Assembly: GCF_000799465.1 (NCBI RefSeq)
Contig: NZ_JUGU01000001.1
Location: 2,748,501-2,812,500, forward strand
Length of the DNA stretch: 64,000 nucleotides
From: Psychroserpens sp. Hel_I_66
GTDB lineage: Bacteria; Bacteroidota; Bacteroidia; Flavobacteriales; Flavobacteriaceae
Reading direction: 5' to 3'
Shown: positions 487-62,988 of the stretch, one piece after another
Layout of the letters: the number at the start of each line of letters is the position of its first letter
Numbering within the stretch: the first letter of the stretch is position 1
Program-made: the position numbers and the translations under genes
The notes under the pieces: generated by a model
Database searches by the model: none
What the model was told of the DNA's origin: nothing
What the model saw: only the letters and a program-made list of their open reading frames with translations

Positions 487-510
487 TTTCCGAAGAAAAA
501 TAAAAAATAA

Positions 511-547
511 AAAAAGCATCTTGAAATCATCAAGATGCTTTTCTTTT
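511..547. terminator. Bidirectional intrinsic terminator between hflX and DUF3078 gene
   Basis: A 13-bp perfect stem (512-524 with 530-542) and a 5-nt loop, with a T-rich run on the plus side and A-rich on the other, lies between two convergent genes. It can stop transcription from both sides. Confidence 0.85.
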
Positions 548-564
548 TAAAGTCATAAATAGGT

Positions 565-1506: not shown

Positions 1507-1541
1507 AATTTTAATTATTTCGGGTTTATTAATTAATCGTG

Positions 1542-2184: not shown

Positions 2185-4020
2185 TTATTGATAACCTTCT
2201 GCCTGCAAAGCAAATAACTCAGCATATAAAGAATCATTTACCATTAATTCTTCGTGTGTTCCTATTTCTAAAACTTTACCTTCTTCCAATACAAGAATTC
2301 TATCTGCTTGTCTAACGGTAGAAAATCTATGAGAAATGATGATACTCGTTTTGTTTTTGGTCAATGCAATAAATCGCTGAAAAACCTCACTTTCTGCTTT
2401 TGCATCCAACGCAGATGTTGGCTCGTCTAGTATCATTACTTCGGCATCTTTCATGTAAGCTCTTGCCAACGCTACTTTTTGCCATTGACCTCCCGACAGA
2501 TCTTGACCTTTGGCAAATCGTTTACCCAACTGTTGGTTATAGCCTTTTTTTAATTCTGAAATGACTTCACTTGCCAAGCTCAATTCCGCAGCATTTTTAA
2601 TTTTTTCAAGATTATCTATTTCATCTATTTTGCCAATGGCGATATTTTCTTTGGCAGTAAATTCATATTTGAAGAAATCCTGAAAAATCACTCCGAAAAA
2701 TTCTTGATATTCTGCTTTATTGAACCTGTTAATATTAACGCCATCCAATAGGATTTCTCCAGATGTTGGCTCGTAAAACCGAAGTAGAAGTTTGGTTAAG
2801 GTTGTTTTTCCTGCACCGTTTTGACCAACAAAAGCTAGTTTTTCTCCTGCACTTAAATTAAATGATGCTCCCTTTAAAATGTTTACATCAGATCCTGGGT
2901 AAGAAAAAAAGACGTCTTTAAATACAAAGCCCGTTTTTATCTTCGTTGGTATTGGCTGGTCTTCAATATGCTTTGGTTGTATTGAAAGATCTATAAATTC
3001 AAAATAGTCTTTTAAGTATAATGCGCTTTCTGTAATTCTGGTAAATTTAGAAAAGAAGTCTTGTAAATTTCTGGTTAACCTATTAAAAGAGCCCGATAAA
3101 AACGTAAGTTCCCCTAATGTGATCATGCCAGTTACAACTCTATAGATTATAAAAACATAAGCTCCATAATAGCTCAAAGTTCCCAATACATTAAACAAAA
3201 ATCCTAAAGCAGAACGCTTTATTGCTAGATTTTTATTGAGGTCATAATATTCTTGAGAGAGATTTTTGAAACGGTCCACAATAAAATCTGTGAGACCAAA
3301 GAGTTTAATCTCCTTTGCGGTTTCATTATTGGCTCCAATGTATCTTAGATAATCGAGTTCGCGACGTTCTGTTGTCCAACCTCTAGCAAGTGAGTATTGT
3401 CTTTGGCTAAACCAAATTTCATTTATAAATGATGGAATAATACTAATGACGAGAAGTATAATTAAATAAGGCTCAAAATAAATAAGACCAGCAACCAAGG
3501 TCGCAATAGAAATAAGACTTTGGATTTCACCAAGTGCATTAGACATTAAACCTACTCGTCCTGTGGTTTGTGTTCTTGCTCGTTCTAATTTATCGTAAAA
3601 TTCGGAATCCTCTAAAAGACTAATATCAATCTTATTGGTCTTTTTTATAATATTTACTGAAGAATTTATAGAATAGGCATCTCCCAAAAGCCCGTCTGTT
3701 AATGAGATTGCACGACTTATTAAATCTGAAAGAATAATGAGACCAAACTCTATACCTACATAAAGCCAAAGTTTAGATAGGTCTGATATATCTGCCTTTG
3801 CCTGTAATACAATCTCATCTATGATAATTTTACCAACCCATAAGATCATTACGGGTAAAACTGCAGCTATTAAACGACAAAAAGCAGATCCAAGAAAAAG
3901 CTTTTTGTTGGTGTTCCAGATTTCCTTAAAAAACCTCGGAATATAAACTAGTGCTTTAAAGGAACCTTTGAGGTTTACTTTATTGCCCTCTGTTATAGAT
4001 TTAGGTTTTTGTCTAGGCAT
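2185..4020 (-). CDS. ABC exporter, fused permease and ATPase subunits
   Basis: 611 residues, inner-membrane protein. The N-terminal half (about 20-320) holds roughly six hydrophobic helices of a type IV (ABCB-like) transmembrane domain. The C-terminal half is a complete nucleotide-binding domain: Walker A GQNGAGKTTLTK near 396, Q-loop in IFQDFFKYEFTA, signature DLSGGQWQKVALARA, Walker B VMILDEPTSALD and H-loop SHRFSTVRQ. It would work as a homodimer or with a half-transporter partner; substrate is unknown. It sits 24 nt downstream of the DUF59 gene in the same strand run, so it may be co-transcribed with the suf genes. Resemblance to Fe-S-precursor exporters cannot be judged from this sequence alone. 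Confidence 0.9.
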   Translation of the reverse strand: MPRQKPKSITEGNKVNLKGSFKALVYIPRFFKEIWNTNKKLFLGSAFCRLIAAVLPVMILWVGKIIIDEIVLQAKADISDLSKLWLYVGIEFGLIILSDLISRAISLTDGLLGDAYSINSSVNIIKKTNKIDISLLEDSEFYDKLERARTQTTGRVGLMSNALGEIQSLISIATLVAGLIYFEPYLIILLVISIIPSFINEIWFSQRQYSLARGWTTERRELDYLRYIGANNETAKEIKLFGLTDFIVDRFKNLSQEYYDLNKNLAIKRSALGFLFNVLGTLSYYGAYVFIIYRVVTGMITLGELTFLSGSFNRLTRNLQDFFSKFTRITESALYLKDYFEFIDLSIQPKHIEDQPIPTKIKTGFVFKDVFFSYPGSDVNILKGASFNLSAGEKLAFVGQNGAGKTTLTKLLLRFYEPTSGEILLDGVNINRFNKAEYQEFFGVIFQDFFKYEFTAKENIAIGKIDEIDNLEKIKNAAELSLASEVISELKKGYNQQLGKRFAKGQDLSGGQWQKVALARAYMKDAEVMILDEPTSALDAKAESEVFQRFIALTKNKTSIIISHRFSTVRQADRILVLEEGKVLEIGTHEELMVNDSLYAELFALQAEGYQ

Positions 4021-4044
4021 TAAAAATTATAATCTGAAAAATCA

Positions 4045-4371
4045 TTAAAGCATTCCCAGTTCTAATTTAGCTTCTTCACTCATTAGATCTTGCGTCCATG
4101 GTGGATCAAATGTAATCTCTACCTCAGCGTTTTTTACGTCATTAAGGGATTTTACTTTCTCTTCCACTTCTAAAGGTAAAGTTTCTGCTACTGGACAGTT
4201 TGGGGTTGTTAAGGTCATTAATATTTTTACTTCGTAATCTTCATTTACAAAGACATCGTAAATAAGACCAAGTTCGTAAATATCTACTGGGATTTCGGGA
4301 TCGTAAATAGTTTTTAAGACTCTCACTATTTTTTCACCTAAAAGGTTTGTATCTATTGCTGTATCGCTCAT
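4045..4371 (-). CDS. DUF59/MIP18 family Fe-S assembly factor (SufT-like)
   Basis: 108 residues, cytoplasmic. It has the family hallmarks DPEIPVDIYELGLIYDV (about residues 23-39), LMTLTTPNCPVAETLP with the conserved Cys near residue 60, and the C-terminal ITFDPPWTQDLMSE. MIP18/DUF59 proteins help mature Fe-S proteins; in bacteria they often sit beside suf genes. Here it lies between sufE and the ABC exporter on the same strand, which supports that role. Full length for the family. Start is ATG. The intergenic space upstream carries one copy of the TTCCGAAG word (4388-4395). Confidence 0.9.
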   Translation of the reverse strand: MSDTAIDTNLLGEKIVRVLKTIYDPEIPVDIYELGLIYDVFVNEDYEVKILMTLTTPNCPVAETLPLEVEEKVKSLNDVKNAEVEITFDPPWTQDLMSEEAKLELGML

Positions 4372-4415
4372 TGTTGTGTTTTTTATTTTCCGAAGAAAAA
4401 CTTTTGAATAGTATT

Positions 4416-4838
4416 TTAATTCAGTTGTGCTTGGTATGCGATGGCATACATTTTTATTTTTTTTATCATGCTCACCAGACCGTTAGCTCGTGTAGGTGAT
4501 AAATGTTCTTTCAAACCGATTTTATCAATAAAATCTGTATCGCTCTCAATTATTGCTTTGGGTTGTTGATTGGAAAATGCCCTGATTAAAATGGCGATAA
4601 TTCCTTTTGTGATAATCGCATCACTATCTGCTGTGAATATGACTTTATTATCATTCATCTCTGCATGCACCCAAACTTTACTTTGGCATCCTTTGATGAT
4701 ATTATCTTCGGTTTTATATTCTGGATCAATTAGAGGCAATGTCTTGCCAAGGTCAATCATATATTGATAGCGTTCTTCCCAATCTTCAAAAAATGAGAAT
4801 TCGTCTATTATTTCGTCCTGTATTTCTGTAATTGTCAT
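4416..4838 (-). CDS. sufE: SufE family cysteine desulfuration protein
   Basis: 140 residues with the ATG at 4838 (MTITEIQDEII). The active-site Cys is C51 in IIKGCQSKVWVH; SufE takes persulfide sulfur from SufS and passes it to the SufBCD scaffold in the cytoplasm. An in-frame extension to a TTG at 4910 is possible on paper, but a good promoter (TTG-N19-TATCTTTG, 4881-4910) lies inside it and would start transcription downstream of that TTG, so the ATG is preferred. Located between an unknown lipoprotein-like gene and the DUF59 gene, three genes from sufS. Length is normal for the family. Confidence 0.93.
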   Translation of the reverse strand: MTITEIQDEIIDEFSFFEDWEERYQYMIDLGKTLPLIDPEYKTEDNIIKGCQSKVWVHAEMNDNKVIFTADSDAIITKGIIAILIRAFSNQQPKAIIESDTDFIDKIGLKEHLSPTRANGLVSMIKKIKMYAIAYQAQLN

Positions 4839-4880
4839 TATCGTTCTAAACTTTTTAAACGGTTCGTTTTTCAGAAAAAA

Positions 4881-4910
4881 CAAAGATACGATATCTCTAC
4901 TGCTTCTCAA
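4881..4910 (-). promoter_or_regulatory. Promoter for sufE (internal to the suf run)
   Basis: Minus strand: -33 TTG at 4910-4908, 19-nt spacer, -7 TATCTTTG at 4888-4881. Both elements and the spacing fit the Bacteroidota consensus. It overlaps the 3' end of the upstream gene (4897-5397), giving sufE and downstream genes their own transcription start, with a leader of about 38 nt. Confidence 0.65.
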
Positions 4911-5397
4911 TCATTGTTTTAATTGATAACATCTTTTCAACTATTGGTTTAATTGATTCTGGAGGTGTACCATGATCAAAAGCAACGGTCTTATAACTAT
5001 TTTCACCATTTTCTACTTCTACAGTTGCGATTGCTGCGCCATCAAATTGGTGTTTTTTAGAAGGTGCCTTTAAGTCTGGTAATGTAGTTTCTTCCATACT
5101 CGAAATTAAACTTACTAGTTCTTCTTTTTCTTCCTTCGGAATTTTATAAGTAGTTACCGATTTCATATCTCTTTCATTTGAAAATGAGATAGAATCTCCC
5201 TGCACAGTAACGTTTAAAAAGAAACCTCTTGAAACAGCTTGATACGTAATTTTCCTATCGATTTGCATGCTTTTTTGAGACATAACTGTTGTATTGTTCC
5301 CTTCTGTTGTAGTATCTTGAGTGGCTAATTGAGCATTTTCTTTATCACATTCTTTTGCCGAAATGAGCATAATGAGTACACATATCATAAGTTTCAT
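4897..5397 (-). CDS. Unknown secreted or lipoprotein-like protein in suf region
   Basis: 166 residues, ATG start. The N-terminus (MKLMICVLIMLISAKEC) is a short hydrophobic export signal; a Cys at 17 follows it, but the -1 to -3 residues (AKE) are a poor lipobox, so lipidation is doubtful. After a Thr/Asn-rich low-complexity linker (about 25-40) comes a compact 110-residue domain with mixed beta strands, including ITYQAVSRGFFLNVTVQGDSISF and IATVEVENGENSYKTVAFDHG. I do not recognise a family. It lies between sufS and sufE on the same strand, so it may be transcribed with them; a role in Fe-S assembly would be surprising for an exported protein and is not claimed. Confidence 0.7.
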   Translation of the reverse strand: MKLMICVLIMLISAKECDKENAQLATQDTTTEGNNTTVMSQKSMQIDRKITYQAVSRGFFLNVTVQGDSISFSNERDMKSVTTYKIPKEEKEELVSLISSMEETTLPDLKAPSKKHQFDGAAIATVEVENGENSYKTVAFDHGTPPESIKPIVEKMLSIKTMIEKQ

Positions 5398-5450
5398 AAT
5401 ATTAGGTTTTAATAATTACTGTAGTAATATTACAAAAAAGAAGCCAAAGT

Positions 5451-6665
5451 TTAAGACAACATCATTTTAGCTTTCTTGACACCTTCAACCAAAGCATCAA
5501 TTTCTTCCTTTGTATTGTAAAATGCAAATGACGCTCTAACGGTTCCTGGAATTTTATAAAAATCCATAACAGGTTGTGCACAGTGGTGACCGGTTCTAAC
5601 AGCAATTCCCATTTTATCTAATATGGTGCCTATATCATAAGGATGAATACCTTTTAAATTAAAAGAAATGACCGATGTTTTTTCTTTTGCTGTTCCGTAG
5701 ATTTTTAGTCCTTCTATAGTTAATAATGCTTCTGTAGCGTACTCCAACAACTCATGCTCATATTTTGCAATGTTCTCAAAACCAATACCATTCATATAAT
5801 CTACAGCAGCGCCAAAAGCGATACCTCCACAAATATTTGGCGTACCAGCTTCAAATTTGTGTGGCAAACCAGCATAAGTTGTTTTCTCAAAACTTACTTG
5901 ATCTATCATTTCGCCACCGCCTTGGTAAGGAGGAAGTTTGTTGAGCCATTCTTCTTTTCCGTAAAGCATACCAATACCTGTTGGTCCACACATTTTGTGG
6001 GCAGAAGTGACATAAAAATCGACATCTAAATCCTGGACGTCTGTTTTTAAATGCGGACAAGATTGTGCTCCATCAACCAAAACTGCTGCACCAACTTGAT
6101 GTGCCAATGCTATCATTTTCTTGATAGGATTAATCGTTCCTAAAGCATTTGAAATATGATTGACAAACACCAATTTTGTTTTTTCTGAAAGCAATGCTTC
6201 GTAATCACTCATAATCAGTTCCCCATTTTGATTCATGGGAATGACTTTTAAAATGGCTCCTGTGCGCTCACACAACATTTGCCATGGCACAATATTGCTA
6301 TGATGTTCTAATGCAGAAACCAAGACTTCATCGCCTTTTTTTAATTCCGAAGAAAAACTACTTGCAATTAAATTGATACCGTGAGTAGTTCCCGAAGTTA
6401 ATATAATCTCATAGCTATGTTTTGCATTAAAATGCGCTTGTATTTTTAGTCTTGCAGCCTCGTATAAATCGGTAGCTTCTTGACTCAAAGTATGAACTCC
6501 TCTGTGAATATTGGCATTGTAATTTGAATAGTAATCTACAATAACATCAATCACCTGTTTTGGCGTTTGCGAGGTTGCAGCATTATCGAAATAGATTAGG
6601 GGTTTCCCGTTAACCTTTCGGTTTAGGATTGGGAAGTCTTTTCTTATTTTTTTTACGTCTATCAT
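5451..6665 (-). CDS. sufS: Cysteine desulfurase SufS
   Basis: 404 residues, cytoplasmic PLP enzyme that removes sulfur from cysteine for Fe-S cluster assembly. Seen: FDNAATSQTPKQVID at the N-terminus, SGTTHGIN, EHHSNIVPW, the Schiff-base lysine in TSAHKMCGPTG (about K224), and the catalytic Cys in TGHHCAQP (C362). The HHCAQP loop is the group II (SufS) form, which needs SufE as acceptor; sufE lies two genes downstream. The gene is separated from sufABCD by the inserted plus-strand cassette. It has its own -7 box (TAACTTTG at 6671-6678) only 5 nt before the ATG, suggesting an almost leaderless mRNA. Carries a TTCCGAAG copy at 6345. Confidence 0.96.
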   Translation of the reverse strand: MIDVKKIRKDFPILNRKVNGKPLIYFDNAATSQTPKQVIDVIVDYYSNYNANIHRGVHTLSQEATDLYEAARLKIQAHFNAKHSYEIILTSGTTHGINLIASSFSSELKKGDEVLVSALEHHSNIVPWQMLCERTGAILKVIPMNQNGELIMSDYEALLSEKTKLVFVNHISNALGTINPIKKMIALAHQVGAAVLVDGAQSCPHLKTDVQDLDVDFYVTSAHKMCGPTGIGMLYGKEEWLNKLPPYQGGGEMIDQVSFEKTTYAGLPHKFEAGTPNICGGIAFGAAVDYMNGIGFENIAKYEHELLEYATEALLTIEGLKIYGTAKEKTSVISFNLKGIHPYDIGTILDKMGIAVRTGHHCAQPVMDFYKIPGTVRASFAFYNTKEEIDALVEGVKKAKMMLS

Positions 6666-6670
6666 GATTG

Positions 6671-6678
6671 CAAAGTTA
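6671..6678 (-). promoter_or_regulatory. -7 promoter element for sufS, abutting the start codon
   Basis: TAACTTTG on the minus strand fits TAnnTTTG and ends 5 nt before the sufS ATG (6665). No clear TTTG is seen 17-23 nt upstream. If used, the transcript would begin at or within a few nt of the start codon. Confidence 0.5.
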
Positions 6679-6761
6679 CGAGATGTTTAGCTAAAATGAC
6701 ATTTAGAAATCGAAACTTATAGATATTTTAATATTTTATTAAAATACATTTAAATAAAATG

Positions 6762-6769
6762 TATATTTG
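6762..6769 (+). promoter_or_regulatory. -7 promoter element for padR cassette
   Basis: TATATTTG fits TAnnTTTG and ends 4 nt before the ATG at 6774. It lies downstream of an in-frame ATG at 6759, which argues for the 6774 start. No convincing -33 element is visible in the very AT-rich upstream DNA. Confidence 0.5.
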
Positions 6770-6773
6770 TAAA

Positions 6774-7112
6774 ATGTATAGCAAAGAACTCACAAAAGGA
6801 ACATTACAACCTATCATTTTAAAATTGATAAGTAGCAGAGATAAAATGTACGGTTATGAGATTACCCAAGAGGTCAAAAAAATGACTTTTGGGAAAATTG
6901 ATATTTCTGAAGGTGCCTTATATCCCATTCTTCATAAGCTCGAAGCCAAAGGGATACTTGAAACAGAGAAAGTTTATATAGGAAAACGCGTTAGAAAATA
7001 TTACAAGGTTACAAAAGATGGCAAAGAAAAGGTAACAGAAGTCACTAAAGAAATCAATGATTTCATGGATACTTTACATCTTATTTTTAATTCTGAAATT
7101 TTAAAATCATGA
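6774..7112 (+). CDS. PadR family transcriptional regulator
   Basis: 112 residues from the ATG at 6774 (MYSKELTKGTLQPIILKLI), the usual PadR N-terminus. An alternative ATG at 6759 lies upstream of the -7 box and is unlikely. The protein is a winged-helix DNA-binding domain: KMYGYEITQEVKKMT (recognition region), SEGALYPILHKLEAKGILE and the wing GKRVRKYYKVTKDGKE. PadR proteins are usually ligand- or stress-responsive repressors of neighbouring genes. The stop codon overlaps the next start by 4 nt (ATGA), so the two are translationally coupled. It most likely controls this four-gene cassette, perhaps its own promoter in the short divergent interval shared with sufS. Confidence 0.93.
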   Translation: MYSKELTKGTLQPIILKLISSRDKMYGYEITQEVKKMTFGKIDISEGALYPILHKLEAKGILETEKVYIGKRVRKYYKVTKDGKEKVTEVTKEINDFMDTLHLIFNSEILKS

Positions 7113-7537
7113 TACTTACAGACCGACATATAGACTTTATAGAGAATAACTTAAAACTTTATGGCGTCAAATCTCAGGGTTTAAGAGAAGATCTTTTAGA
7201 TCATATTTGCACTTATATCGAAAACAATAACTCTGAAAACTTTGATACTATATACCAAGAAGCACTTCAGAAATTTGGTGGTTATAGTAGTTTTCAAAAT
7301 TTACAGTTGGAAACCAATTATCAAAAATTCGCTAAACAGATAATAAATATTAATAGACTAAAATTTTCCTTTGGCTTTTTGGTAATTCTACTTTTAGTAA
7401 TGAGTTTGGTGTTTCAAATGATGCAATGGCCTTATGCTAATGCTTGGTTACTTGGGGCAATATTAGTTTCGGTATTGGTCATACTTCCTATTCATTTTTA
7501 TGCGAAATACAAAAAATCTATTCTTAAATTTTCTTAA
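7109..7537 (+). CDS. Small membrane protein with HAAS-like N-terminal helical domain
   Basis: 142 residues. The N-terminal half is an amphipathic helical region (HIDFIENNLKLYGV, LREDLLDHICTYIE, FDTIYQEALQKFGGYSSFQNL), resembling the DUF1700/HAAS domains that are typically encoded with PadR regulators. The C-terminal half is a two-helix membrane hairpin (about 88-132) with QWPY between the helices and an FYAKYKKS end. Coupled to padR by a 4-nt overlap. By analogy with PadR-HAAS pairs it could be a membrane partner that senses or titrates the regulator; this is inference. The WPY hairpin is repeated in the next small gene. No signal peptide. Confidence 0.75.
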   Translation: MILTDRHIDFIENNLKLYGVKSQGLREDLLDHICTYIENNNSENFDTIYQEALQKFGGYSSFQNLQLETNYQKFAKQIININRLKFSFGFLVILLLVMSLVFQMMQWPYANAWLLGAILVSVLVILPIHFYAKYKKSILKFS

Positions 7538-7549
7538 ACTTAATTTCAA

Positions 7550-7729
7550 ATGAAAAAATCATTTTACATTCTAGGGTTTATAACCTTTTTTATACTTGGT
7601 ATAGGAGCTATGTTTGAATTTCTCACTTGGCCTTACAGAGGAATTATCGTATTTGTTGGTTTCTTGTTTTTAAATTTTGGACTAATACCAACCTATTTTT
7701 ATCAAAAATATAAGCAATGCAAGGTTTGA
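7550..7729 (+). CDS. 59-residue membrane protein with WPY hairpin
   Basis: ATG at 7550, stop at 7727-7729, 59 residues. Nearly the whole protein is two transmembrane helices, ILGFITFFILGIGAMFEF and IIVFVGFLFLNFGLIP, joined by LTWPYRG and ending in TYFYQKYKQCKV. This arrangement matches the C-terminal half of the upstream 142-residue protein (FQ-MMQWPYANAW ... LPIHFYAKYKKS), so the two are probably related by duplication. It starts 12 nt after the previous stop and overlaps the start of the hydrolase gene by 13 nt, which supports it as a real, co-translated gene. Function unknown. Confidence 0.72.
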   Translation: MKKSFYILGFITFFILGIGAMFEFLTWPYRGIIVFVGFLFLNFGLIPTYFYQKYKQCKV

Positions 7730-9381
7730 AAATTTTTTGGGTTCTATTTTCTATATGTTTTAGTTTATTTACGAATGCTCAAAATAATCTAAGAAAAACC
7801 ATTGATAGTATTTTAAAAATCTATGATACTAATAATGAGCCAGGATTATCCATTCGTGTTATTAAACAAGACTCTATAGTATATTCTAAAAGCTTTGGAG
7901 TCGCGAATTTAGATTACAACATAAAAAATACAGATTCTACTATTTTTAGCTTAGGATCAATAAGTAAACAATTTACCGCAGCTGCTATTTGGTCTTTAAT
8001 TAGAGACTCTAAACTAAGTTTAGAAGATAATATCACTTCGTTTTTTCCAGATTTTCCAAACTACGGGAGACCCATAAAAATCAAACATCTACTTAACCAT
8101 TCTAGTGGTATTAGAAATTATCATACCACCATGTTTTTATCTGGTTTTGATTATAATAATGATTATTATGATAATACTTATGTCCTTAATTTAGTTAAAA
8201 GACAAAAAAATCTCAACAATCATCCTGGTGAGAAAATCATATATTCAAATACAAATTACAATCTTTTAGCTTTAATTATTGAACAGGTTTCAAACCAAAA
8301 TCTCGATGAGTATTTAAAAGATAAAATTCTTAAACCGTTAGGAATGAAGGACACTTTTGTAAGGATTTCCCATGGTACAATTGTTAAAAACAAAGCTGTT
8401 GGTTATCAAAAACAAAAAGATACTTATGTATTTAATTCATCAAATCAGTTGAGTTATGGCGCTGGAAGTATGGGAAGCCATATAAAAGATATGAATATTT
8501 GGATGAGAATGCTTAATGGAGATATCCTTGAGTTCAAAACATTAGCTCAATTTCTTAAAACAACCGAAGTACTGACCAGTAAACAAAAAGCCAAATATGC
8601 AAGAGGAATTATGGTAGACGATTACAAAGGTTATAAAACATTGAGCCATAGTGGATATGGCTTTGGAAATCAATCTCATATCATTACCGTTCCAAAAGAA
8701 AAGATTGGCATCGTAATTCTCACAAATTTGGAATCGATTAACCCAACTCCAATATCTTATGAAATTTTGGACTTGCTGCTCGTTTCCGAAGAAAACATAA
8801 AACCAAATTTGATAGAAGATAAAATTTCGTTTGAACCACAAGATTTGATACTCTTTACTGGAGATTACCGAGAAATCAACAGCGATATGACGATGCGAAT
8901 TTCCGAAGAAAACGATACGCTTAAAGCTCAAGGATCTATGGGAAATAGCAAGATACCGCTACTACAAAATAACACCAATGAATTTGTGAGACGTGATGCT
9001 CAAAATGTAAAATATAATTTTGAAAAAACATCCCATTATGATATGGTTATATCATTTGGAGGAACTCCGTTTTACTTTAAACGTGCCAACCTAATAAACA
9101 CAAATCCTGAAAATTTAATAGACTATTGTGGTGAATTTTATTCTGAAGAATTACAAACCACTTATCATTTTTATATAGACAAAGATCAATTAAAATTATC
9201 GTACAAAAATAATACAGCTATAGCCTTGTATCCTATTGAAATAGATGCATTTGGAAATAAAGACAGAACACTCTATCAGTTTGTAAAAACAAAAGACAGT
9301 TCTGAAATAACAGGAATGTTTTTATCCTGTGACGGACAAGTAAGCAACATTGAGTTTACTAAAGATCAAACCCAAGACTAA
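7717..9381 (+). CDS. Beta-lactamase-fold serine hydrolase, exported
   Basis: 554 residues with a signal peptide (about 1-21, ...SLFTNAQ). The class C beta-lactamase/DD-peptidase catalytic motifs are complete: S81-I-S-K84, Y176-S-N, and HSG near residue 311. The C-terminal 190 residues form one or two lipocalin-like beta domains, common in this family. It would act in the periplasm or on the cell surface on peptides, esters or peptidoglycan-related D-amino acid peptides; true beta-lactamase activity cannot be inferred. It is the last gene of the PadR cassette (overlaps the 59-residue gene by 13 nt) and its 3' end overlaps sufD tail-to-tail by 23 nt. Contains TTCCGAAG at 8784 and 8901. Confidence 0.88.
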   Translation: MQGLKIFWVLFSICFSLFTNAQNNLRKTIDSILKIYDTNNEPGLSIRVIKQDSIVYSKSFGVANLDYNIKNTDSTIFSLGSISKQFTAAAIWSLIRDSKLSLEDNITSFFPDFPNYGRPIKIKHLLNHSSGIRNYHTTMFLSGFDYNNDYYDNTYVLNLVKRQKNLNNHPGEKIIYSNTNYNLLALIIEQVSNQNLDEYLKDKILKPLGMKDTFVRISHGTIVKNKAVGYQKQKDTYVFNSSNQLSYGAGSMGSHIKDMNIWMRMLNGDILEFKTLAQFLKTTEVLTSKQKAKYARGIMVDDYKGYKTLSHSGYGFGNQSHIITVPKEKIGIVILTNLESINPTPISYEILDLLLVSEENIKPNLIEDKISFEPQDLILFTGDYREINSDMTMRISEENDTLKAQGSMGNSKIPLLQNNTNEFVRRDAQNVKYNFEKTSHYDMVISFGGTPFYFKRANLINTNPENLIDYCGEFYSEELQTTYHFYIDKDQLKLSYKNNTAIALYPIEIDAFGNKDRTLYQFVKTKDSSEITGMFLSCDGQVSNIEFTKDQTQD

Positions 9382-10672
9382 CACCCAATTTATTCGCAAT
9401 AATCTTTGTGATGCGTTGCTTAATTTCAGGAATTTTTACTGAATCTAAAACGTTATTACTAAACGCAAACATTAAAAGGGCTTTTGCTTCTTTTTCTGGA
9501 ATACCACGCGAGCGCATGTAAAACATAGCACTTTCGTCTAGTTGACCAATGGTACAACCGTGAGAGCATTTTACATCATCTGCAAAGATCTCTAATTGAG
9601 GCTTGCTATTTATCGAGGCTTTATCGCTTAATAAAATGTTATTATTAGATTGAAACGCATTGGTTTTTTGTGCTTCTTTGTTCACGATAACCTTACCATT
9701 GAACACACCTGTAGATTTATCTGAAAAAATACCTTTGTAATCTTGATGGCTTTCACAATTTGGCTCAATATGATGCACCAATGTATTGTGATCTACATGT
9801 TGGTTATCACCAATAATGGTCACACCATTTAAGGTAGAATCCATGTGTTGACCGTTTTGGTAGAAATTGAGATTATTTCTCGTTAATTTTCCTCCAAAAG
9901 AAAACGTATGTACAGATACATGACTTTCTCTTTTTTGATTGATACTCGTATTGTCAATTAATGAAGCAGTTTGCTTATCATTTTGAATTTTATAGTAATC
10001 TACAATCGCTCTTTTATTGGCAAATATTTCGGTAACGCTATTTGTTAAAACAGGATTATCTGTCAAACTTTGGTGACGTTCTATAATTTGCACATGTGAA
10101 TTCTCATCTACTACAATTAGGTTACGTGGTTGTAACATTAAAGCAGACTCATTTCCGGTTGAGAAATTAATGATTTGAATTGGTTTCTCTACTAGTTTGT
10201 TCTTCGGAATATGAATATATGCACCTTCTTTTGAGAATGCAGTATTTAAAGATGAAATCCCATCTTTTGAAGCCACTTTATTAAAATAGTTCTCAGTAAT
10301 AAGTTGATATTTTGGCTTGTTCAATGCAGATGACATCAAGCATACATCAATACTATCGTGTGTTGTTTGTGAAAGGTTTGAGGAGAATTTACCATCTATA
10401 AACACTAAGTTGTAGCAATCTATATCGTGGATAAAATACTTTTTTACATCTCTATACTCTATGGCGTTTTCTTGCTTCGGAAAAACACTGTAATCTGTTT
10501 TTAATAGGCTATTTAAAGATGTGTATTTCCAATTTTCATCACGCTTTGACGGAAAGCCTTGATCTTCAAAAATCTTTATCGCTTCATTACGTAAATCGTG
10601 CACAGGAGCATCTACATCTACTGTATTTTCAAAAGCCATAAATGACGATACTAATTTATCTTTTAATTCCAT
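9359..10672 (-). CDS. sufD: Fe-S cluster assembly protein SufD
   Basis: 437 residues from the ATG at 10672 (MELKDKLVSSF); an upstream in-frame TTG at 10681 is less likely. SufD is part of the SufBC2D scaffold on which clusters are built. Seen: N-terminal helical region with SKRDENWKYTSL, a long right-handed beta-helix of short strands (about 90-390), and the C-terminal signature KCSHGCTIGQLDESAMFYMRSRGIPEKEAKALL, whose Cys/His residues lie at the SufB-SufD interface. Downstream of sufC with about 140 nt of non-coding DNA between; its 3' end runs into the opposing hydrolase gene. Two minus-strand copies of the TTCCGAAG word (10202, 10475). Confidence 0.95.
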   Translation of the reverse strand: MELKDKLVSSFMAFENTVDVDAPVHDLRNEAIKIFEDQGFPSKRDENWKYTSLNSLLKTDYSVFPKQENAIEYRDVKKYFIHDIDCYNLVFIDGKFSSNLSQTTHDSIDVCLMSSALNKPKYQLITENYFNKVASKDGISSLNTAFSKEGAYIHIPKNKLVEKPIQIINFSTGNESALMLQPRNLIVVDENSHVQIIERHQSLTDNPVLTNSVTEIFANKRAIVDYYKIQNDKQTASLIDNTSINQKRESHVSVHTFSFGGKLTRNNLNFYQNGQHMDSTLNGVTIIGDNQHVDHNTLVHHIEPNCESHQDYKGIFSDKSTGVFNGKVIVNKEAQKTNAFQSNNNILLSDKASINSKPQLEIFADDVKCSHGCTIGQLDESAMFYMRSRGIPEKEAKALLMFAFSNNVLDSVKIPEIKQRITKIIANKLGVSLGFDL

Positions 10673-11992: not shown

Positions 11993-12078
11993 AATTATCT
12001 TCCTTAAAATTGGAAGTGCTATTTCATTAAACTTAAATCTATAAATGTTCAGATTCTTGTTTCCGAAGACATAAAAAT

Positions 12079-14306: not shown

Positions 14307-14456
14307 AGTAGGTTGCAATGATTTGGGATGACTAATTTAAAATAAATTTTTAAAATTACCGACTAAATACTAATTTTTTCGCTGAAATGCATTTTCTAAT
14401 GTTTCCGAAGACCTTAAAAATAACTTAAATCAATTCTCTGCTTTAAAAAAGCTAAC

Positions 14457-30318: not shown

Positions 30319-30341
30319 TACTTTATGTCCTAAATTTAAAT

Positions 30342-50119: not shown

Positions 50120-50157
50120 ATTTTAAGCTAAACTCATTTTCTTTTTTCCGAAGTAAA

Positions 50158-50922: not shown

Positions 50923-51087
50923 AGCATAATACAGCGTAATTGAAAATTATAAAGCCCACAGGTACCAATACTTATGAAAATTTTAACGTTATCAAACATT
51001 TTATGGTGCGTATTTTTTCTTCGGAAAATTTATTGGCAAAATACCGATAAGATAAATGGGTTTTTTATCTTGTATGAAAATTTATAA

Positions 51088-54000: not shown

Positions 54001-54249
54001 GATCAAAACCTCACGATATACAATGAGCGGGATGTCATTTCAAAAAATGGCAGAATATACAGACCAGATAGAATTGTAGTAGACTCAAATAATCAAGCAA
54101 CAATTATAGATTACAAAACAGGTTTACAAGATTCCAAACATCGTGAACAGCTATTTGACTACCAATATATTTTGGAAGAAATGAATTTTAACGTTGTTAG
54201 AAAAGTTCTAATTTATATAAACGACGACATTGTGATAAAAGAATTTTAA
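51088..54249 (+). CDS. AddA/RecB-like UvrD helicase with C-terminal nuclease domain
   Basis: 1053 residues, GTG start; the ATG at 51074 is out of frame and stops after five codons. Superfamily 1A helicase: Walker [19 protein letters not shown] (about 9), motif Ia [17 protein letters not shown], Walker [18 protein letters not shown] (about 392), [30 protein letters not shown], and motif [16 protein letters not shown]. The C-terminal part (about 900-1053) has a PD-(D/E)XK RecB nuclease core: [29 protein letters not shown]. This is the AddA half of a break-repair helicase-nuclease; the AddB-like half is at 57025, with kbl and ompA between them. Contains three TTCCGAAG words (51285, 52820, 53691) and one just upstream (51019). 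Confidence 0.9.
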
Positions 54250-57024: not shown

Positions 57025-59787
57025 ATGAGAACATTTATAGATGAAGTCATTTTAGATTTACTAGAAAAAGAAATTGATATTTCTAAACTTACATTTGTTC
57101 TCCCAAGTAGACGTGCTGGTACTTTTTTGAAAAAAAGTATTTCAAAACATGTCAATAAAACATTATTCGCTCCAACCATAGTTTCGATAGAAGAATTTGT
57201 TGAAACACTCTCAGACTTTCAGTACGCCACAAATGCAGAGCTTCTTTTTGAGTTTTACGATGTATATCTTAAAATTACACCAAAATCTAATATTGAGCCT
57301 TTCGATAAGTTTTCTAAATGGGCACAAATATTATTACAGGATTTTAACGAATTAGACCGCTATCTAATTGAATCGAATAAAGTATTTGATTATTTAACTG
57401 CTATTAAAAAAATTGAAAACCAACATTGGTCTCTAGACGAAGAACCTACTCAGTATATTAAAAATTATCTGGAATTCTGGAATCGACTAAAAACTTATTA
57501 CAGCAACTTTAAAGAACAACTTGTAATAAAGAAGAAAGCCTATCAAGGCTTTATTTACAAAGAAGCTGTTAATAATATTGAACAGTACATTGCCCTCAAT
57601 ACTCACAATAAGTATGTATTCGTAGGTTTTAACGCTCTCAATAAAGCTGAAGAAATTATCATACAAGAATTATTGCAACAAGACCTAGCAATGATTTATT
57701 GGGATATTGATAAGGTATTTATTGAAAATCCTATTCATGATGCTGGCTTATTTACAAGAGCACATAAAAATTCTTGGACTTATTTTAAAAAGAATGAGTT
57801 TGATTGGATAAGAGAAAACTATTCCAAAGAAAAGAATATCCAAATCATTGGAGCTCCAAAAAACATTACCCAAATCAAGTATGTTGGTGAGATTTTGGAA
57901 AACATCTATGCAGAAAATAATAATCTTCAAGATACTGCAATAGTACTTGGTGATGAGACCTTATTAATCCCCTTACTTAATTCTATTCCCAACTCTATTA
58001 AAGCCATTAATATTACTATGGGTTTGCCTTTAAAATCCATACCTCTTGCTTCATTATTTGAGAGTCTTTTTAATGTCAACAAATCACTAAATCAAAACTA
58101 TTATTATAAAGATATTGTTAGTCTATTATCCAATTCATTTATAAAGCACCTATTTGATTCACAACATCATAATGGTGCAGAATTTCTAATAAATCACATT
58201 CAAACCAACAACATTGTTTATTTAAATTGTGAACAAATTAAAAATATTGTAGATAGTAATCATGAACTTTTAGAAATTATATTTGGCAATTGGGAAGATA
58301 ACCCTAAAAAAGCTTTAAAAAACTGCTCGAAACTAATCTATAGAATTAAGAACAAATTAGAAAAGGACAAAACCACTAACCACCTTTCATTAGAATATCT
58401 ATTTCGTTTCAATCAAATTTTTAACACCCTAGAAACACTAAATAGTTCATTCTCCCACATCAACTCTATTGCAACACTTTTTAGCCTGTACAGAGAACTA
58501 ATTAAAAGTGAAACATTAGATTTCAAAGGAGAGCCCTTGAGAGGTTTACAAATCATGGGTATGCTAGAATCCCGTGTTCTGGATTTTGAGACTGTAATTA
58601 TTACATCTGTAAACGAAGGTATTTTACCAGCAGGTAAAAGTCATAATTCTTTTATTCCGTTTGATGTCAAAGTTGAAAACAACCTACCAACTTATAAAGA
58701 GAAAGATGCGGTGTACACCTATCATTTCTACAGATTATTACAACGTGCTAAAAAAGCCTTCATATTATACAATACAGAACCAGATGTGCTAAACGGTGGT
58801 GAAAAAAGTAGATTTATTACCCAATTAGAAATCGAGAACATTCATAATATTCAGCATAAAATTGTTTCTGCTCATGTGCCTTCTTATGAGCAGAATTTAA
58901 AAGAAATAATAAAGACGCCTAATATTATTGAAACACTAAATGTTTTAGGTCAAAAAGGGTTTTCGCCTTCCGCATTAACCAACTATATGAGAAATCCCAT
59001 TGATTTTTATTATGAGAAAATTTTGGGCATAAAAAAATTTGAAGATGTAGAAGAAAGCGTAGCCTATAACACACTGGGAACAGTCATTCACAATACATTG
59101 GAAGATTTCTACAAACCTTTGGAAAATCAATTCCTAACCGTTGATTCTTTAAAACAGATGATTACCAATGTTGATGATAAAGTGTCCCATCATTTTAATC
59201 AAGAATTTAAAGAAGGTGATATCACAAGAGGCAAGAACCTCATCATTTTTGAAATTGCAAAACGATATGTTTCAAATTTTTTAAATCTTGAAATAAAAGA
59301 TTTAAAACAAGGAAATACCATCAAGATCATTGCTATCGAAACAAAAAACACAGTTCCAATTTACATAGAATCATTATCAAGAACCATTCATTTAACCGGT
59401 AAAGTTGATCGTGTAGATAACTATAATGGGACTGTTAGAATTATTGACTACAAAACAGGAAAAGTAGAGTCAAACAAAGTAGAAATCGTAGATTGGGAAG
59501 ACTTAACTACAGACTATGAGAAGTACAGCAAAAGTTTTCAAATACTTATGTATGCTTACATGATGCAAAAAGAGAACAAAATAAGCTTACCTGTTGAGGC
59601 AGGAATTATATCATTTAAAAACTTAAATGCTGGATTGTTAAAATTCGCAACCAAACCTTCTTCAAGAAGTCAATCAAAGGATTTTTTAATTACTTCGGAA
59701 ACATTAAGCGCATTTGAAATTGAGCTCAAAAAATTAATAACCGAAATCTTTAATAAAGACATCAACTTCAAAGAAAAAGAAATTTAA
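57025..59787 (+). CDS. AddB-like PD-(D/E)XK nuclease/inactivated helicase
   Basis: 920 residues, cytoplasmic. N-terminus LTFVLPSRRAGTFLKKSIS resembles the UvrD-like start of AddB but lacks a classical Walker A. Middle: LRGLQIMGMLESRVLDFETVIITSVNEGILPAGK (about 510-543). C-terminal nuclease (about 655-890): FSPSALTNYMRNPIDFYYEKILGIK, LGTVIHNTLEDFY, LTGKVDRVDNYNGTVRIIDYKTGK (catalytic Asp and D-Y-K). The four iron-sulfur Cys of Bacillus AddB are not seen around the nuclease domain. Likely partner of the AddA-like protein at 51088. Starts 11 nt after the ompA terminator, so its promoter is unclear, perhaps terminator read-through. One TTCCGAAG word near the 3' end (59693). Confidence 0.82.
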   Translation: MRTFIDEVILDLLEKEIDISKLTFVLPSRRAGTFLKKSISKHVNKTLFAPTIVSIEEFVETLSDFQYATNAELLFEFYDVYLKITPKSNIEPFDKFSKWAQILLQDFNELDRYLIESNKVFDYLTAIKKIENQHWSLDEEPTQYIKNYLEFWNRLKTYYSNFKEQLVIKKKAYQGFIYKEAVNNIEQYIALNTHNKYVFVGFNALNKAEEIIIQELLQQDLAMIYWDIDKVFIENPIHDAGLFTRAHKNSWTYFKKNEFDWIRENYSKEKNIQIIGAPKNITQIKYVGEILENIYAENNNLQDTAIVLGDETLLIPLLNSIPNSIKAINITMGLPLKSIPLASLFESLFNVNKSLNQNYYYKDIVSLLSNSFIKHLFDSQHHNGAEFLINHIQTNNIVYLNCEQIKNIVDSNHELLEIIFGNWEDNPKKALKNCSKLIYRIKNKLEKDKTTNHLSLEYLFRFNQIFNTLETLNSSFSHINSIATLFSLYRELIKSETLDFKGEPLRGLQIMGMLESRVLDFETVIITSVNEGILPAGKSHNSFIPFDVKVENNLPTYKEKDAVYTYHFYRLLQRAKKAFILYNTEPDVLNGGEKSRFITQLEIENIHNIQHKIVSAHVPSYEQNLKEIIKTPNIIETLNVLGQKGFSPSALTNYMRNPIDFYYEKILGIKKFEDVEESVAYNTLGTVIHNTLEDFYKPLENQFLTVDSLKQMITNVDDKVSHHFNQEFKEGDITRGKNLIIFEIAKRYVSNFLNLEIKDLKQGNTIKIIAIETKNTVPIYIESLSRTIHLTGKVDRVDNYNGTVRIIDYKTGKVESNKVEIVDWEDLTTDYEKYSKSFQILMYAYMMQKENKISLPVEAGIISFKNLNAGLLKFATKPSSRSQSKDFLITSETLSAFEIELKKLITEIFNKDINFKEKEI

Positions 59788-59788
59788 T

Positions 59789-60631
59789 ATGGTTATCAAA
59801 AATCAAGTTTTAGACAGAACCCCTAAAAAACCAATAGTTTGGGATGCTTTTTTCAATGAAAACGGAACGCAAAAACCACTAGTTATATTCTGTCATGGCT
59901 ATAAGGGTTTTAAAGATTGGGGAACTTGGGACCTCGTTGCCAGTTCATTTAGTGAAAATAATCACTTTTTTGTGAAATTCAATTTTTCCCATAATGGTGG
60001 CACAGTAGAAAATCCTATTGATTTTCCAGATTTAAATGCCTTTGCAGAAAATAATTACACTAAAGAACTTGATGATTTAGATGAAATGTTAAACCATCTG
60101 CTTTCCGAAGAATTTAAACATAAAAATGAAATTGATACCACAAATGTAACCTTAATTGGGCACTCTCGAGGTGGTGGTATCGCTATCATAAAAACAAATG
60201 AAGACGAGCGTATCTCAAGATTAATTACTTGGGCCAGTATAAGTGATTTTGGAGAAAGGGCTTCAACAACTGGCGAATTAGAACAATGGCGAAAAGATGG
60301 TGTCAAATATGTTTTAAACGGAAGGACAAAACAAAAAATGCCACATAATTTTCAGTTTTATGAAGATTTTAAAGCCAATGAAAAACGGTTGCACATAGAA
60401 CCTGCAATAAAAAACATTAAGGTCCCTGTGATGATTATTCATGCTTTAGAAGATCCTTCAGTTTCATATTCTGAAGCAGAAGATCTATATTCTTGGAATC
60501 ATGACAACGTACTCGTTACCATAAATAATTCAGACCACGTATTTGGATCTCGTCACCCATGGGATGACTCTAAATTGCCAAAAGCACTTAACAATGTTGT
60601 TGAAAAAAGTATCGGGTTTATAAATAATTAA
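59789..60631 (+). CDS. Alpha/beta-fold hydrolase
   Basis: 280 residues, ATG at 59789, one base after the previous stop, so co-transcribed with the AddB-like gene. Seen: oxyanion region VIFCHGYKGFKDWGTWDLV (about 32-50), nucleophile elbow GHSRGGG (S126), acid in ALEDPSVSY and catalytic His in NNSDHVFGSRHPW. Dienelactone-hydrolase/S9-like esterase family; substrate unknown. No signal peptide. The 3' end overlaps the opposing kinase gene by 4 nt. Confidence 0.87.
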   Translation: MVIKNQVLDRTPKKPIVWDAFFNENGTQKPLVIFCHGYKGFKDWGTWDLVASSFSENNHFFVKFNFSHNGGTVENPIDFPDLNAFAENNYTKELDDLDEMLNHLLSEEFKHKNEIDTTNVTLIGHSRGGGIAIIKTNEDERISRLITWASISDFGERASTTGELEQWRKDGVKYVLNGRTKQKMPHNFQFYEDFKANEKRLHIEPAIKNIKVPVMIIHALEDPSVSYSEAEDLYSWNHDNVLVTINNSDHVFGSRHPWDDSKLPKALNNVVEKSIGFINN

Positions 60632-62988
60632 GCGATTTTAAGGTGTTGTTTGCTTTGACATTCGTCTATCTTTTTGAAGAGTAATTCTTTATTAACCGGT
60701 TTGGTCATATAATCGTTCATTCCTAATCCTAAAACTCTTTGCCTTGTTTCCTGCATGGCATCTGCAGTTACAGCGATAATTGGGATACCTCCAATTTCTA
60801 AGCCTAATTGACCACTTCTTATAATTTTTGTTGCTTCGTAGCCATCCATAATTGGCATTTGAAGATCCATTAAAATAATGTCATACACATCATTTTTTAA
60901 GGCGTCAAGTGCTTCTTGACCATTATCAACAATTGCAAAACTGATATGGGATGAGCTGCTCAACAATTTTCTCATAACCATTTGATTGAGTTTATTATCT
61001 TCTACAACTAAAACATGTTGTGGGTTTGATTGCGTTTGAATATCATCATTTGTTGGTGCATCAGCTTTAGGTATATATTCTAATGGCAACTCAATAAATA
61101 CATCTGTACCTTTTTCCTCTTGACTCTCTAAATTTATGGTCCCTCCAAAAAGCCCGACTAAGTGATTAACAATAGTTAACCCTAAACCAATCCCGCCAAA
61201 TTTACGTTTATGGTTTAATTTCATTTGGTTAAAACTATCAAACATGCTTCTTCTACGTTCTGTATCTATACCAACGCCAGAATCTGATATTTGTAAAGAA
61301 AAACGAGAGATATTATTAGGCTGTGTAAAACATTTCAACTTGAATTTCACATAACCTTCCTCTGTAAATTTAACTGCATTGCCCAACACATTATTAATAA
61401 TCTGCATAAAACGCTCTGCATCACCAATAACTTTTGTTGGAATTTCATGATCCATTTCAAAACTATATGCCAACCCTTTATTTTCAGCTTCAACCTTCCA
61501 GTTATTACTTATCTGACGAATTGCTATAGATGGGTTAAATTCTTCATGTTTCAACTCCAGTTCATTTTTTTGAATATTCTCAAAATCTAAAATATCATTT
61601 ACGTTACTCAGTAGACTTAACGATGCATTCTTAATGATTTCATATTGTTTTCTTGATTCAACGGTGTTATTTTGATCTTTTATTTCTAACTCAGCAATAC
61701 CCATTATTGCGTTTATTGGAGTTCGTAGTTCATGACTAATATTGGACATAAAATAGGTTTTAAGCTCACTTATTTCTTCAGATTTGTAAAGTGCCTCATT
61801 CTGTGATTTTTCCTTTTCAAGACGTAAGTTTCTAATAAGGTTCGTCATTGAAAGCGATAAAAATATAACCTCAAATCCAGAACCAAATTTAGCGCTGTTT
61901 AGCGTATAAAAATTATTTGGAAGTAAGCTTAAATTGTTCATTACAAAACCACAAAGCCCAACAACGAGAAAGAATATTCCGAAGGAAAAATAAGGATCAA
62001 TTGACATCCTCTTAAACCGCAATGTAAATACTGTAGACAAAATAAGTATTAAGCTCAAAAGACCATTAAGATTACTTATTGGATAAACCAATTCTAGTGT
62101 TTTTGGACTTATAAAAATCATCACAAAAAGAACACCAATAACTAAATATATAGCATTGTAAAACTTTTTGAAACTAGCCAGTCTTTCATTAACTTTTAAA
62201 AAGTATTCGCAGTATTTAAGCAAAAAGAAATTAGAAAACAAAGCAGCAATTAAAACAGTTCTGCCATTTAAATAACCACCATCTGGCAGTATATATTGAT
62301 GTATAAATCCATCTAGCGCAGCTTGCATTAAACCAATAGAAAAGACATAGATCCCATAATACAAAAATGTTTTTTCTTTTAGACTTGTGTAGAAAAACAG
62401 GTAAATGATAGCAGCTAAAGACAATAGACCATAGAACAAGCCTAAAAACAGTTGTTGCCTATAATTCATCTCCCAAAATGAAGTCTCGCTATAAAGGTTG
62501 AGAGGCATATTTATAGTTTCGCCATCACTGTTTAAGTGTAAATAGATTTGATGGGTTGAGTTGGCGGGCAACTCTAATTTAAAAATCGTGGCCCTATGGT
62601 TTAATTGACGTTCTTTAAATGGAATTTGATCTCCACTTTTTGCTGTAGTTATCCCTTCTTCGGAAATTTGATACATCAAAGCAATATCTGTAATAGGTCT
62701 AGCGGTCTCTAGATAATACGTTTTTTGAATATCATCTGAATTTTCCAACTTAAAACGTACCCAAAAGTTATCTGTTGTAAAACCAACACTATGGTTTTCA
62801 GACTCTAGGTTTTCATACTCGATGTCAGGGTTTGTTAAGATGGATTCCAGACCAAATGTTTCTTTGCCAACATTAGCAAATTCAGCATACTCAAAGAGCT
62901 TGCCTTTACTAGTTTCTGGATTATAAGTTACGTCTTGAGCATATAAACTCAAGCCTAAAAAAAGGGTAAATAGTAGTGTTAGTTTCAC
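60628..62988 (-). CDS. Hybrid sensor histidine kinase with 7TMR-DISM sensor and receiver domain
   Basis: 786 residues, GTG start at 62988 (an ATG just upstream is out of frame and stops after four codons). Signal peptide about 1-17; periplasmic DISMED2-type beta domain (about 20-170, with FWVRFKLEN and YYLETARPITDIALMYQ); seven-helix membrane region (about 175-385). Cytoplasmic part: H-box NISHELRTPINAIMG (His about 418), N-box NVLGNAVKFTEEG, G1 ISDSGVGID, G2 GGIGLGLTIV, then a C-terminal receiver with phospho-Asp in IILMDLQMPIMDG (about D706) and conserved Lys in MTKPVNKELL. No DNA-binding domain, so it needs a partner, not seen here. Ligand unknown, possibly a carbohydrate. Confidence 0.92.
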   Translation of the reverse strand: MKLTLLFTLFLGLSLYAQDVTYNPETSKGKLFEYAEFANVGKETFGLESILTNPDIEYENLESENHSVGFTTDNFWVRFKLENSDDIQKTYYLETARPITDIALMYQISEEGITTAKSGDQIPFKERQLNHRATIFKLELPANSTHQIYLHLNSDGETINMPLNLYSETSFWEMNYRQQLFLGLFYGLLSLAAIIYLFFYTSLKEKTFLYYGIYVFSIGLMQAALDGFIHQYILPDGGYLNGRTVLIAALFSNFFLLKYCEYFLKVNERLASFKKFYNAIYLVIGVLFVMIFISPKTLELVYPISNLNGLLSLILILSTVFTLRFKRMSIDPYFSFGIFFLVVGLCGFVMNNLSLLPNNFYTLNSAKFGSGFEVIFLSLSMTNLIRNLRLEKEKSQNEALYKSEEISELKTYFMSNISHELRTPINAIMGIAELEIKDQNNTVESRKQYEIIKNASLSLLSNVNDILDFENIQKNELELKHEEFNPSIAIRQISNNWKVEAENKGLAYSFEMDHEIPTKVIGDAERFMQIINNVLGNAVKFTEEGYVKFKLKCFTQPNNISRFSLQISDSGVGIDTERRRSMFDSFNQMKLNHKRKFGGIGLGLTIVNHLVGLFGGTINLESQEEKGTDVFIELPLEYIPKADAPTNDDIQTQSNPQHVLVVEDNKLNQMVMRKLLSSSSHISFAIVDNGQEALDALKNDVYDIILMDLQMPIMDGYEATKIIRSGQLGLEIGGIPIIAVTADAMQETRQRVLGLGMNDYMTKPVNKELLFKKIDECQSKQHLKIA

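Follow-up and report, generated by a model that had tools for sequence, protein, structure and literature searches.

Uptake sequences appear in our literature searches for two unrelated families only, Neisseriaceae and Pasteurellaceae. The DUS of Neisseriaceae is present in many copies, with variants around a constant core, and its reader is a minor pilin, the ComP receptor. The USS of Haemophilus and the Pasteurellaceae has a non-palindromic core of ~9 bp, occurs in more than 1000 copies with the two strands alike, and is flanked on one side by an A/T-rich stretch, with relatives carrying different types. The core, AAGTGCGGT, and its two types are given in a published account (PMC12616744). 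Natural transformation of Riemerella anatipestifer involves ComEC, DprA, ComF and RecA, together with barrel, DUF5689, HHH and DUF1343 proteins (PMC8459023). In a report on Riemerella columbina, own DNA competes more than other DNA in transformation; among the words listed from an uncorrected k-mer count are A/T-rich ones, whose role the authors left open (PMC7965970). Riemerella is not known to have an established uptake sequence.

The word described here from the marine flavobacterium Psychroserpens, TTCCGAAG, shares with the USS a short non-palindromic core, a copy number above 1000, even strands, an A/T-rich stretch on one side and relatives that differ in type. With the DUS it shares its abundance and a core that stays constant among the variants, here TTCCG[ACT]AG. 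It differs from the USS in phylum and sequence and in belonging to a genome without an above-threshold type IV pilus ATPase, and from the DUS, whose reader is a pilin, in that its role in uptake is putative. Compared with Riemerella anatipestifer, the Psychroserpens genome has ComEC and the barrel and DUF5689 operon in common. We propose that TTCCGAAG is probably the core of a DNA-uptake sequence that is kept by biased self-DNA uptake. An uptake-sequence-like role fits the genomic signatures of the word: it shows no strand skew, occurs in all contexts, carries an A-rich flank, is retained at its sites, and has a patchy distribution with changed preferences.

Abundance and placement of the word

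The window, which is the whole 64-kb stretch of DNA analysed, contains 42 exact copies of TTCCGAAG on both strands, from position 488 to 62665, exactly the number counted in the original prediction, while 100 dinucleotide shuffles of the window gave a mean of 1.24 and a maximum of 5 copies. Counting TTCCGCAG and TTCCGTAG as variants raises the total to 58 TTCCGHAG sites. TTCCGAAG has the highest z among 8-mers in the window and ranks first among 30,270 8-mer pairs in 484 kb of the Psychroserpens genome. The excess is not limited to the window: the 3.84-Mb genome has 2174 copies (1089 + 1085 by strand), ~30 times the chance level, versus 118 (62 + 56) for the reversed word, used as a control.

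Scored as exact matches and placed by our own ORF set, 16 copies in the window are sense to genes, at 8784–8791, 8901–8908, 15379–15386, 17920–17927, 24658–24665, 26362–26369, 28322–28329, 31967–31974, 45771–45778, 51285–51292, 53691–53698 and 60103–60110 on the plus strand and at 5134–5141, 10202–10209, 10475–10482 and 62658–62665 on the minus strand. Twenty are antisense, at 6345–6352, 16865–16872, 20617–20624, 37244–37251, 39010–39017, 43441–43448 and 61977–61984 (plus) and at 15199–15206, 19451–19458, 20135–20142, 24069–24076, 30707–30714, 30751–30758, 39801–39808, 39920–39927, 45719–45726, 48158–48165, 48902–48909, 52820–52827 and 59693–59700 (minus). The remaining six are intergenic, at 488–495, 4388–4395, 12061–12068, 14403–14410 and 50146–50153 (plus) and at 51019–51026 (minus). 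The split is the same as that predicted originally.

The excess also survives codon correction, so that the outcomes named in the original prediction as refuting it did not occur. In 410 kb of sampled genes, TTCCGAAG occurs 219 times versus 11.2 times after synonymous shuffling, a 19.5-fold excess, and the highest count in 60 shuffles is 24. Between genes, 40 copies are found versus 1.3 expected (32-fold). Neither codon usage nor base composition nor a family of dispersed repeats is therefore at all likely to explain the excess: codons make a mild contribution, the 11.2 copies expected in genes, but the intergenic excess is at least as strong as the genic one, and the conservation of the flank ends by about +16, which argues against a repeat family.

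We found no preference for intergenic DNA, since 40 of the 259 sampled copies lie in the 15.4% of DNA between genes, in proportion to its length. In addition, 8 of 239 gaps between copies are shorter than 60 bp, and gaps shorter than 100 bp are as frequent as expected (0.054 observed versus 0.052). These observations bear on the idea that TTCCGAAG is bound across the chromosome by a factor that serves the nucleoid, segregation or the termination of transcription, as might be supposed from copies lying chromosome-wide on both strands. Such a factor is improbable given the proportional intergenic share, the spacing, and an orientation that is independent of replication arm; furthermore, a patchy gain between related genera would be hard to square with a housekeeping factor.

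Strand balance and the comparison with Chi

Known Chi words are biased towards the leading strand, and a large codon-corrected excess and an A-rich flank are atypical of them. TTCCGAAG resembles the Chi words of E. coli and B. subtilis in being short, over-represented and non-palindromic, and differs in having no strand skew and a larger codon-corrected excess. A Chi-like recombination hotspot read by AddAB would be enriched for the protection that it gives to chromosome ends in repair; a short, non-palindromic, highly over-represented word is of the size expected from known Chi words, and the window itself encodes both an AddA-like protein (51088–54249) and an AddB-like protein (57025–59787). 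Tests on two-arc splits, which address the strand bias raised by the original prediction, revealed no replication-strand skew among the 259 sampled copies, as no split tried departs from chance (P 0.58), and the strands are even genome-wide. AddB is present in 80 of 80 genomes, word-rich or word-poor, although its specificity may have changed. A Chi role for TTCCGAAG is unlikely because the word has no leading-strand skew and AddB is present regardless of the word; the 19.5-fold excess and the A-rich flank are likewise not typical of Chi. Of the two analogies drawn originally, the genomic signatures fit the one to uptake sequences, and the one to Chi is disfavoured, so that the original interpretation is supported in part. 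The family named there, Flavobacteriaceae, is correct, the genus being Psychroserpens.

Core, variants and flank of the motif

The flank of TTCCGAAG has T at −1 and A at +8 to +10, in agreement with the consensus proposed before, and conservation is not seen past about +16. The extended motif reads YTTCCG[A/C/T]AG-N-AA, followed by an A-rich tail. Specifically, core position +5 is A, C, T and G in 259, 88, 62 and 11 copies, respectively, and these variants are 31-, 14-, 9- and 2.5-fold over a Markov model in the own genome, G being hardly accepted. AA at positions +9/+10 accompanies A, C and T at +5 in fractions of 0.52, 0.42 and 0.42 of copies, over a background of 0.13, and does not go with TTCTGAAG, TTCGGAAG or TCCCGAAG (0.07, 0.11 and 0.04) in the same genome. 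Near variants in this genome show a graded excess, in which the core and the looser flank go together. TTCAGAAG is not enriched there, yet bears the AA flank in 0.23 of its 22 copies.

Another explanation is maintenance by an orphan DNA methyltransferase or by repair bias, as proposed for the cyanobacterial HIP1 palindrome, which has a very high density as well. The excess of HIP-type words is similar or higher, GGCGATCGCC being counted 5648 times versus 5 in one report (PMC1939737), and HIP1 is linked to a methyltransferase in another (PMC4390886). However, TTCCGAAG is non-palindromic, its flank is asymmetric and A-rich, and no methyltransferase is tied to it, which leaves this explanation with little plausibility.

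The motif appears to vary among relatives. At 20 loci of congeners, TTCCGTAG is enriched (39 vs 6.3) but lacks the AA flank (0.05). In five other genera, compared on 100 kb per genome, the core is enriched 7- to 11-fold in genes and the AA flank is enriched as well (0.25–0.40 vs 0.10–0.14); in other genera, TTCAGAAG also bears the AA flank.

A putative uptake code and its candidate machinery

All 23 Psychroserpens genomes lie above their own control, 11 of 23 at 3-fold or more. An excess of at least 3-fold together with at least 400 copies is seen in 27 of 299 genomes of the family, but in none of the 126 genomes from elsewhere in the order. Across the family the distribution is graded and patchy, with preferences altered between genera. 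When the own genome is aligned with seven relatives having more than 800 copies, its sites are retained in 31 of 71 alignments, versus 16 of 114 with 13 other relatives (Fisher P 1e-5); for reference, comparable 8-mers are retained in 2161 of 17,325 cases. Positions are thus kept in word-rich relatives, a point on which the original prediction had sought a check.

In the proposed uptake mechanism, host cells would be competent, and competent cells of Psychroserpens and of a number of related genera would be better at binding and importing word-bearing fragments than others. Recombination bringing in such a fragment would fix one more copy, and repeated fixation would let the word accumulate by molecular drive, so that biased uptake would maintain it. 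The outer-membrane step would run through the flavobacterial machine described in Riemerella, not through a type IV pilus.

The word is set apart from the type IV pilus-based DUS and USS systems because the own genome has just one sub-threshold match to the pilus ATPase (PF00437; 19.3 bits, below the 24.9-bit cut-off). Matches to the pilus/T2SS ATPase with E <1e-100 show no link with the word: 8 of 31 word-rich genomes have one, as do 13 of the 49 others. Riemerella-type parts, in turn, are present in the own genome, namely ComEC and the barrel and DUF5689 operon, which lies some 16 kb to the left of the window and whose homologues Riemerella requires for transformation. ComEC is found in all 31 word-rich genomes tested and is equally common without the word (48 of 49 other genomes); 0 of 11 good genomes without ComEC are word-rich, a result often expected by chance. 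DUF5689, present in 31 of 31 word-rich and 47 of 49 other genomes, does not fit as the reader, as it does not track the word and sister word-bearing species carry different DUF5689 types. The barrel is perhaps the reader, a candidate that tracks the word no better than the species tree does: of the 22 word-rich genomes placed on the tree, 21 have barrels of one clade, and the barrel clade can differ between word-bearing sister species.

More broadly, it is slightly more likely than not that Bacteroidota have a self-DNA uptake code of their own, with TTCCGHAG/TTCMGAAG dialects and an A-rich tail. Several genera of marine Flavobacteriaceae would share it, and its reader would be a non-pilus outer-membrane DNA importer, perhaps the barrel. 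If so, no earlier uptake sequence would be known outside the Neisseriaceae and Pasteurellaceae, and such codes, each with its own receptor, would have independent origins. Adding a third case, from a different phylum and from a genome without an above-threshold pilus ATPase, would point to convergent evolution of self-DNA codes. It would also open a way into the flavobacterial transformation machine, of which little is known, and placing the motif on donor DNA would be a practical route for transforming marine flavobacteria.

Scarcity of the word in foreign DNA was seen in two islands, both picked for being poor in it: of 21 sampled 20-kb stretches, the sole one with no copy is an SspBCD defence island, and the one with the next lowest count, 3 copies, carries a restriction-modification-like locus.

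Abundance and sequence context of the word

The 42 copies of TTCCGAAG that the original prediction counted on both strands of the window were all recovered. In 100 dinucleotide shuffles the mean is 1.24 copies, never exceeding 5, and by z score TTCCGAAG is the top 8-mer of the window. With our own ORF set (at least 80 codons), the copies are again 16 sense, 20 antisense and 6 intergenic. The excess also proved to be genome-wide, as claimed: the Hel_I_66 genome, one contig of 3,842,990 bp in which the window spans 2,748,501–2,812,500, has 1089 forward and 1085 reverse copies, versus 62 and 56 of the control, the same word read backwards. In a 484-kb sample of this genome, comprising the window and 21 sampled 20-kb stretches, TTCCGAAG ranks first among 30,270 8-mer pairs, with 259 copies versus 8.3 expected from a second-order Markov model. 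The expectation rises to 14, 50 and 143 under orders 3, 4 and 5, in our opinion because these models learn TTCCGAAG itself.

Codon usage does not account for the excess, in line with the original prediction. Specifically, 60 rounds of synonymous-codon shuffling over the sample's 372 ORFs gave an expectation of 11.2 copies in genes and a maximum of 24, versus 219 found. Between genes there are 40 copies versus 1.3 expected. Intergenic DNA contributes 15.4% of the sampled sequence and an equal share, 15.4%, of the copies, indicating that copies scale with DNA length. The two strands carry 127 and 132 of the 259 sampled copies, which show no replication-strand skew: among all two-arc splits of the 22 sampled places, with at least 6 places per arc, the largest imbalance is 31 of 259, versus a mean of 33 in 300 random-strand trials (P = 0.58).

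Numbering the first T of the motif as 0, position +5 tolerates A, C or T in the sample; TTCCGAAG, TTCCGCAG, TTCCGTAG and TTCCGGAG occur 259, 88, 62 and 11 times, 31-, 14-, 9- and 2.5-fold over expectation. Position −1 is T (0.61) or C, and A occurs at +8, +9 and +10 with frequencies of 0.57, 0.71 and 0.73, the A-rich flank fading out by about +16. In Hel_I_66, AA at +9/+10 follows 52%, 42% and 42% of TTCCGAAG, TTCCGCAG and TTCCGTAG copies, versus 13% of positions generally, and 7%, 11% and 4% of TTCTGAAG, TTCGGAAG and TCCCGAAG copies. TTCAGAAG is not enriched in this genome, yet has AA there in 23% of its 22 copies. We read core and flank as a single recognised element, YTTCCGHAGNAA. Counter to this, TTCCGTAG has the AA flank in just 5% of 39 copies at 21 congener loci, although these loci are mostly syntenic, so that common gene sequence may contribute to the low share. 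The build resembles that of the Haemophilus uptake sequence, with a GC-bearing core and an A-rich stretch on one side.

Distribution and retention among relatives

All 23 Psychroserpens genomes exceed the reversed-word control, from 1.1-fold (G014) to 18-fold (Hel_I_66), and 11 of them do so at least 3-fold; the word-survey counts for Psychroserpens luteolus XSD401 are 288/284 and 97/107. As we read the table, 27 of 299 genomes sampled from the family, in 18 genera, combine an excess of 3-fold or more with at least 400 copies of TTCCGAAG. The highest count is 2678 versus 245 (G299), and many other genomes fall below the control. Of the 80 named loci, 42 were looked up in this respect; among these, an excess of at least 3-fold is found in Salinimicrobium catena, Altibacter lentus, Aequorivita vladivostokensis and UBA3356. 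Of 156 genomes surveyed across the order, 30 belong to the family; among the 126 that do not, none has an excess of at least 3-fold with at least 50 copies. Closest to that level is one family, f4, which includes several genomes with a mild excess that reaches 2.9-fold relative to the reversed word, before codon correction.

The word-rich state is largely inherited, with a few gains or losses. When 40 chosen genomes (22 word-rich, 14 word-poor, 4 between) are placed on an rpoB tree, the word-rich label needs 5 changes, versus 13.5 when shuffled. Separately, an 11.6-kb metagenome-assembled contig filed as Dokdonia has four sites of a different, palindromic word, GCTTTCGCGAAAGC, which may be HIP-like.

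In five genomes of other genera, sampled at 100 kb apiece, TTCCGAAG stands at 7 to 11 times the expected count within genes and at 7 to 18 times between them, and ranks first among 8-mers in four and second in one. In word-poor genomes, sampled at nine loci that all come from the surroundings of DUF5689, it shows no excess (4 copies versus 3.9 expected). The AA flank follows TTCCGAAG at 0.25–0.40 in the five genomes, versus 0.10–0.14. Which variants are tolerated differs in part from Hel_I_66: TTCAGAAG is 2- to 4-fold above codon expectation and has the AA flank in four of the five (0.32–0.48). Neither TTCCGCAG nor TTCCGTAG exceeds 5 copies in G299 or G061, but both are flanked in G262. From these small samples, we read dialects around TTCCGAAG.

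Part of the window around sdhA was aligned with 20 of 22 congeners (G011 and G017 left out). The word sites of Hel_I_66 remain identical in 31 of 71 comparisons with the seven relatives that have more than 800 copies, versus 16 of 114 comparisons with the remaining 13 (Fisher P = 1e-5). The background, for CG-containing 8-mers with four G/C, is 2161 of 17,325 (12.5%; 7–20% by relative). Sites are thus kept where TTCCGAAG is abundant and fall to background elsewhere.

Putative uptake machinery and a candidate reader

In Riemerella anatipestifer, transformation depends on ComEC, DprA, ComF and RecA, and on four further proteins that have no counterpart in known machines; two of the four, a predicted outer-membrane barrel and a DUF5689 protein, are encoded in one operon (PMC8459023). 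In Hel_I_66 the homologous operon is found some 16 kb to the left of the window (genome 2,728,489–2,732,831; 6489–10831 of sampled stretch L177). It encodes a 950-aa barrel-like protein with a CarboxypepD_reg domain and a 477-aa DUF5689 protein, the C-terminal half of which is predicted to form a MAM/adhesin-like jelly roll. In each of the 40 genomes read, the two genes occur on one stretch. Sister species carry highly dissimilar types of the DUF5689 partner, as though swapped between lineages. ComEC is encoded at 3,708,133–3,708,942, and AddA-like (UvrD helicase and PDDEXK) and AddB-like (PDDEXK) proteins at window positions 51088–54249 and 57025–59787, with an aminotransferase gene and an OmpA-domain gene between them.

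We surveyed 31 word-rich and 49 other genomes, with G277 in place of G263 in the AddB search. ComEC is present in 31 of 31 and 48 of 49, DUF5689 in 31 of 31 and 47 of 49, AddB in all of both, and a pilus/T2SS ATPase with E < 1e-100 in 8 of 31 and 13 of 49. The machine is therefore general, unlike the word, to which the pilus ATPase shows no link. DUF5689 phylogeny fails to track the word (11 label changes versus 13.4 shuffled). The barrel tree needs 6 changes, about as good as rpoB, and unites all word-rich genomes but one, G003, in a single clade (21 of 22). If the G003 barrel was recently swapped in, the barrel could still be the reader.

Equal use of both strands, drive-like abundance whatever the context, a core with its flank, retention, patchiness with shifting preferences and the predicted competence machine together favour an uptake sequence over the other sorts of abundant word considered. 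The element probably works like known uptake sequences. The latter operate with type IV pili; no pilus/T2SS ATPase with E < 1e-100 was found in Hel_I_66, and we therefore do not file the word under the Neisseriaceae or Pasteurellaceae systems, the only families for which the relevant excerpt of a 2025 paper (PMC12616744) names uptake sequences. The only flavobacterial attempt found in the literature is a raw k-mer ranking, with A/T-rich words in the available portion of its table (PMC7965970).

Placement along the chromosome

Copies of TTCCGAAG per 20 kb have a mean of 10.3 and a variance of 20.6, a spread wider than Poisson. The lowest of the 21 stretches are L020 (genome 3,470,001–3,490,000), with zero copies, and L012, with three. 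L020 has an SspBCD-type defence island at 2876–9855 (SspB, SspC, SspD and an MzaB-like protein), and L012 a DrmMII-like cytosine methylase adjoining a restriction-like ATPase. Both stretches, picked for study as word-poor, look acquired.

Adjacent copies have opposite orientation in 144 of 238 pairs in the 484-kb sample (P = 0.0014); elsewhere the alternation is weak (183 of 337 pairs in other genomes, P = 0.13). The repair-like genes of the window (MutS-like, DinB-like and AddAB-like; 30315–32114, 39142–40254, 51088–54249 and 57025–59787) hold 9 copies versus 5.0 expected (P = 0.07), recalling the repair-gene bias reported for the uptake sequences of Neisseriaceae.
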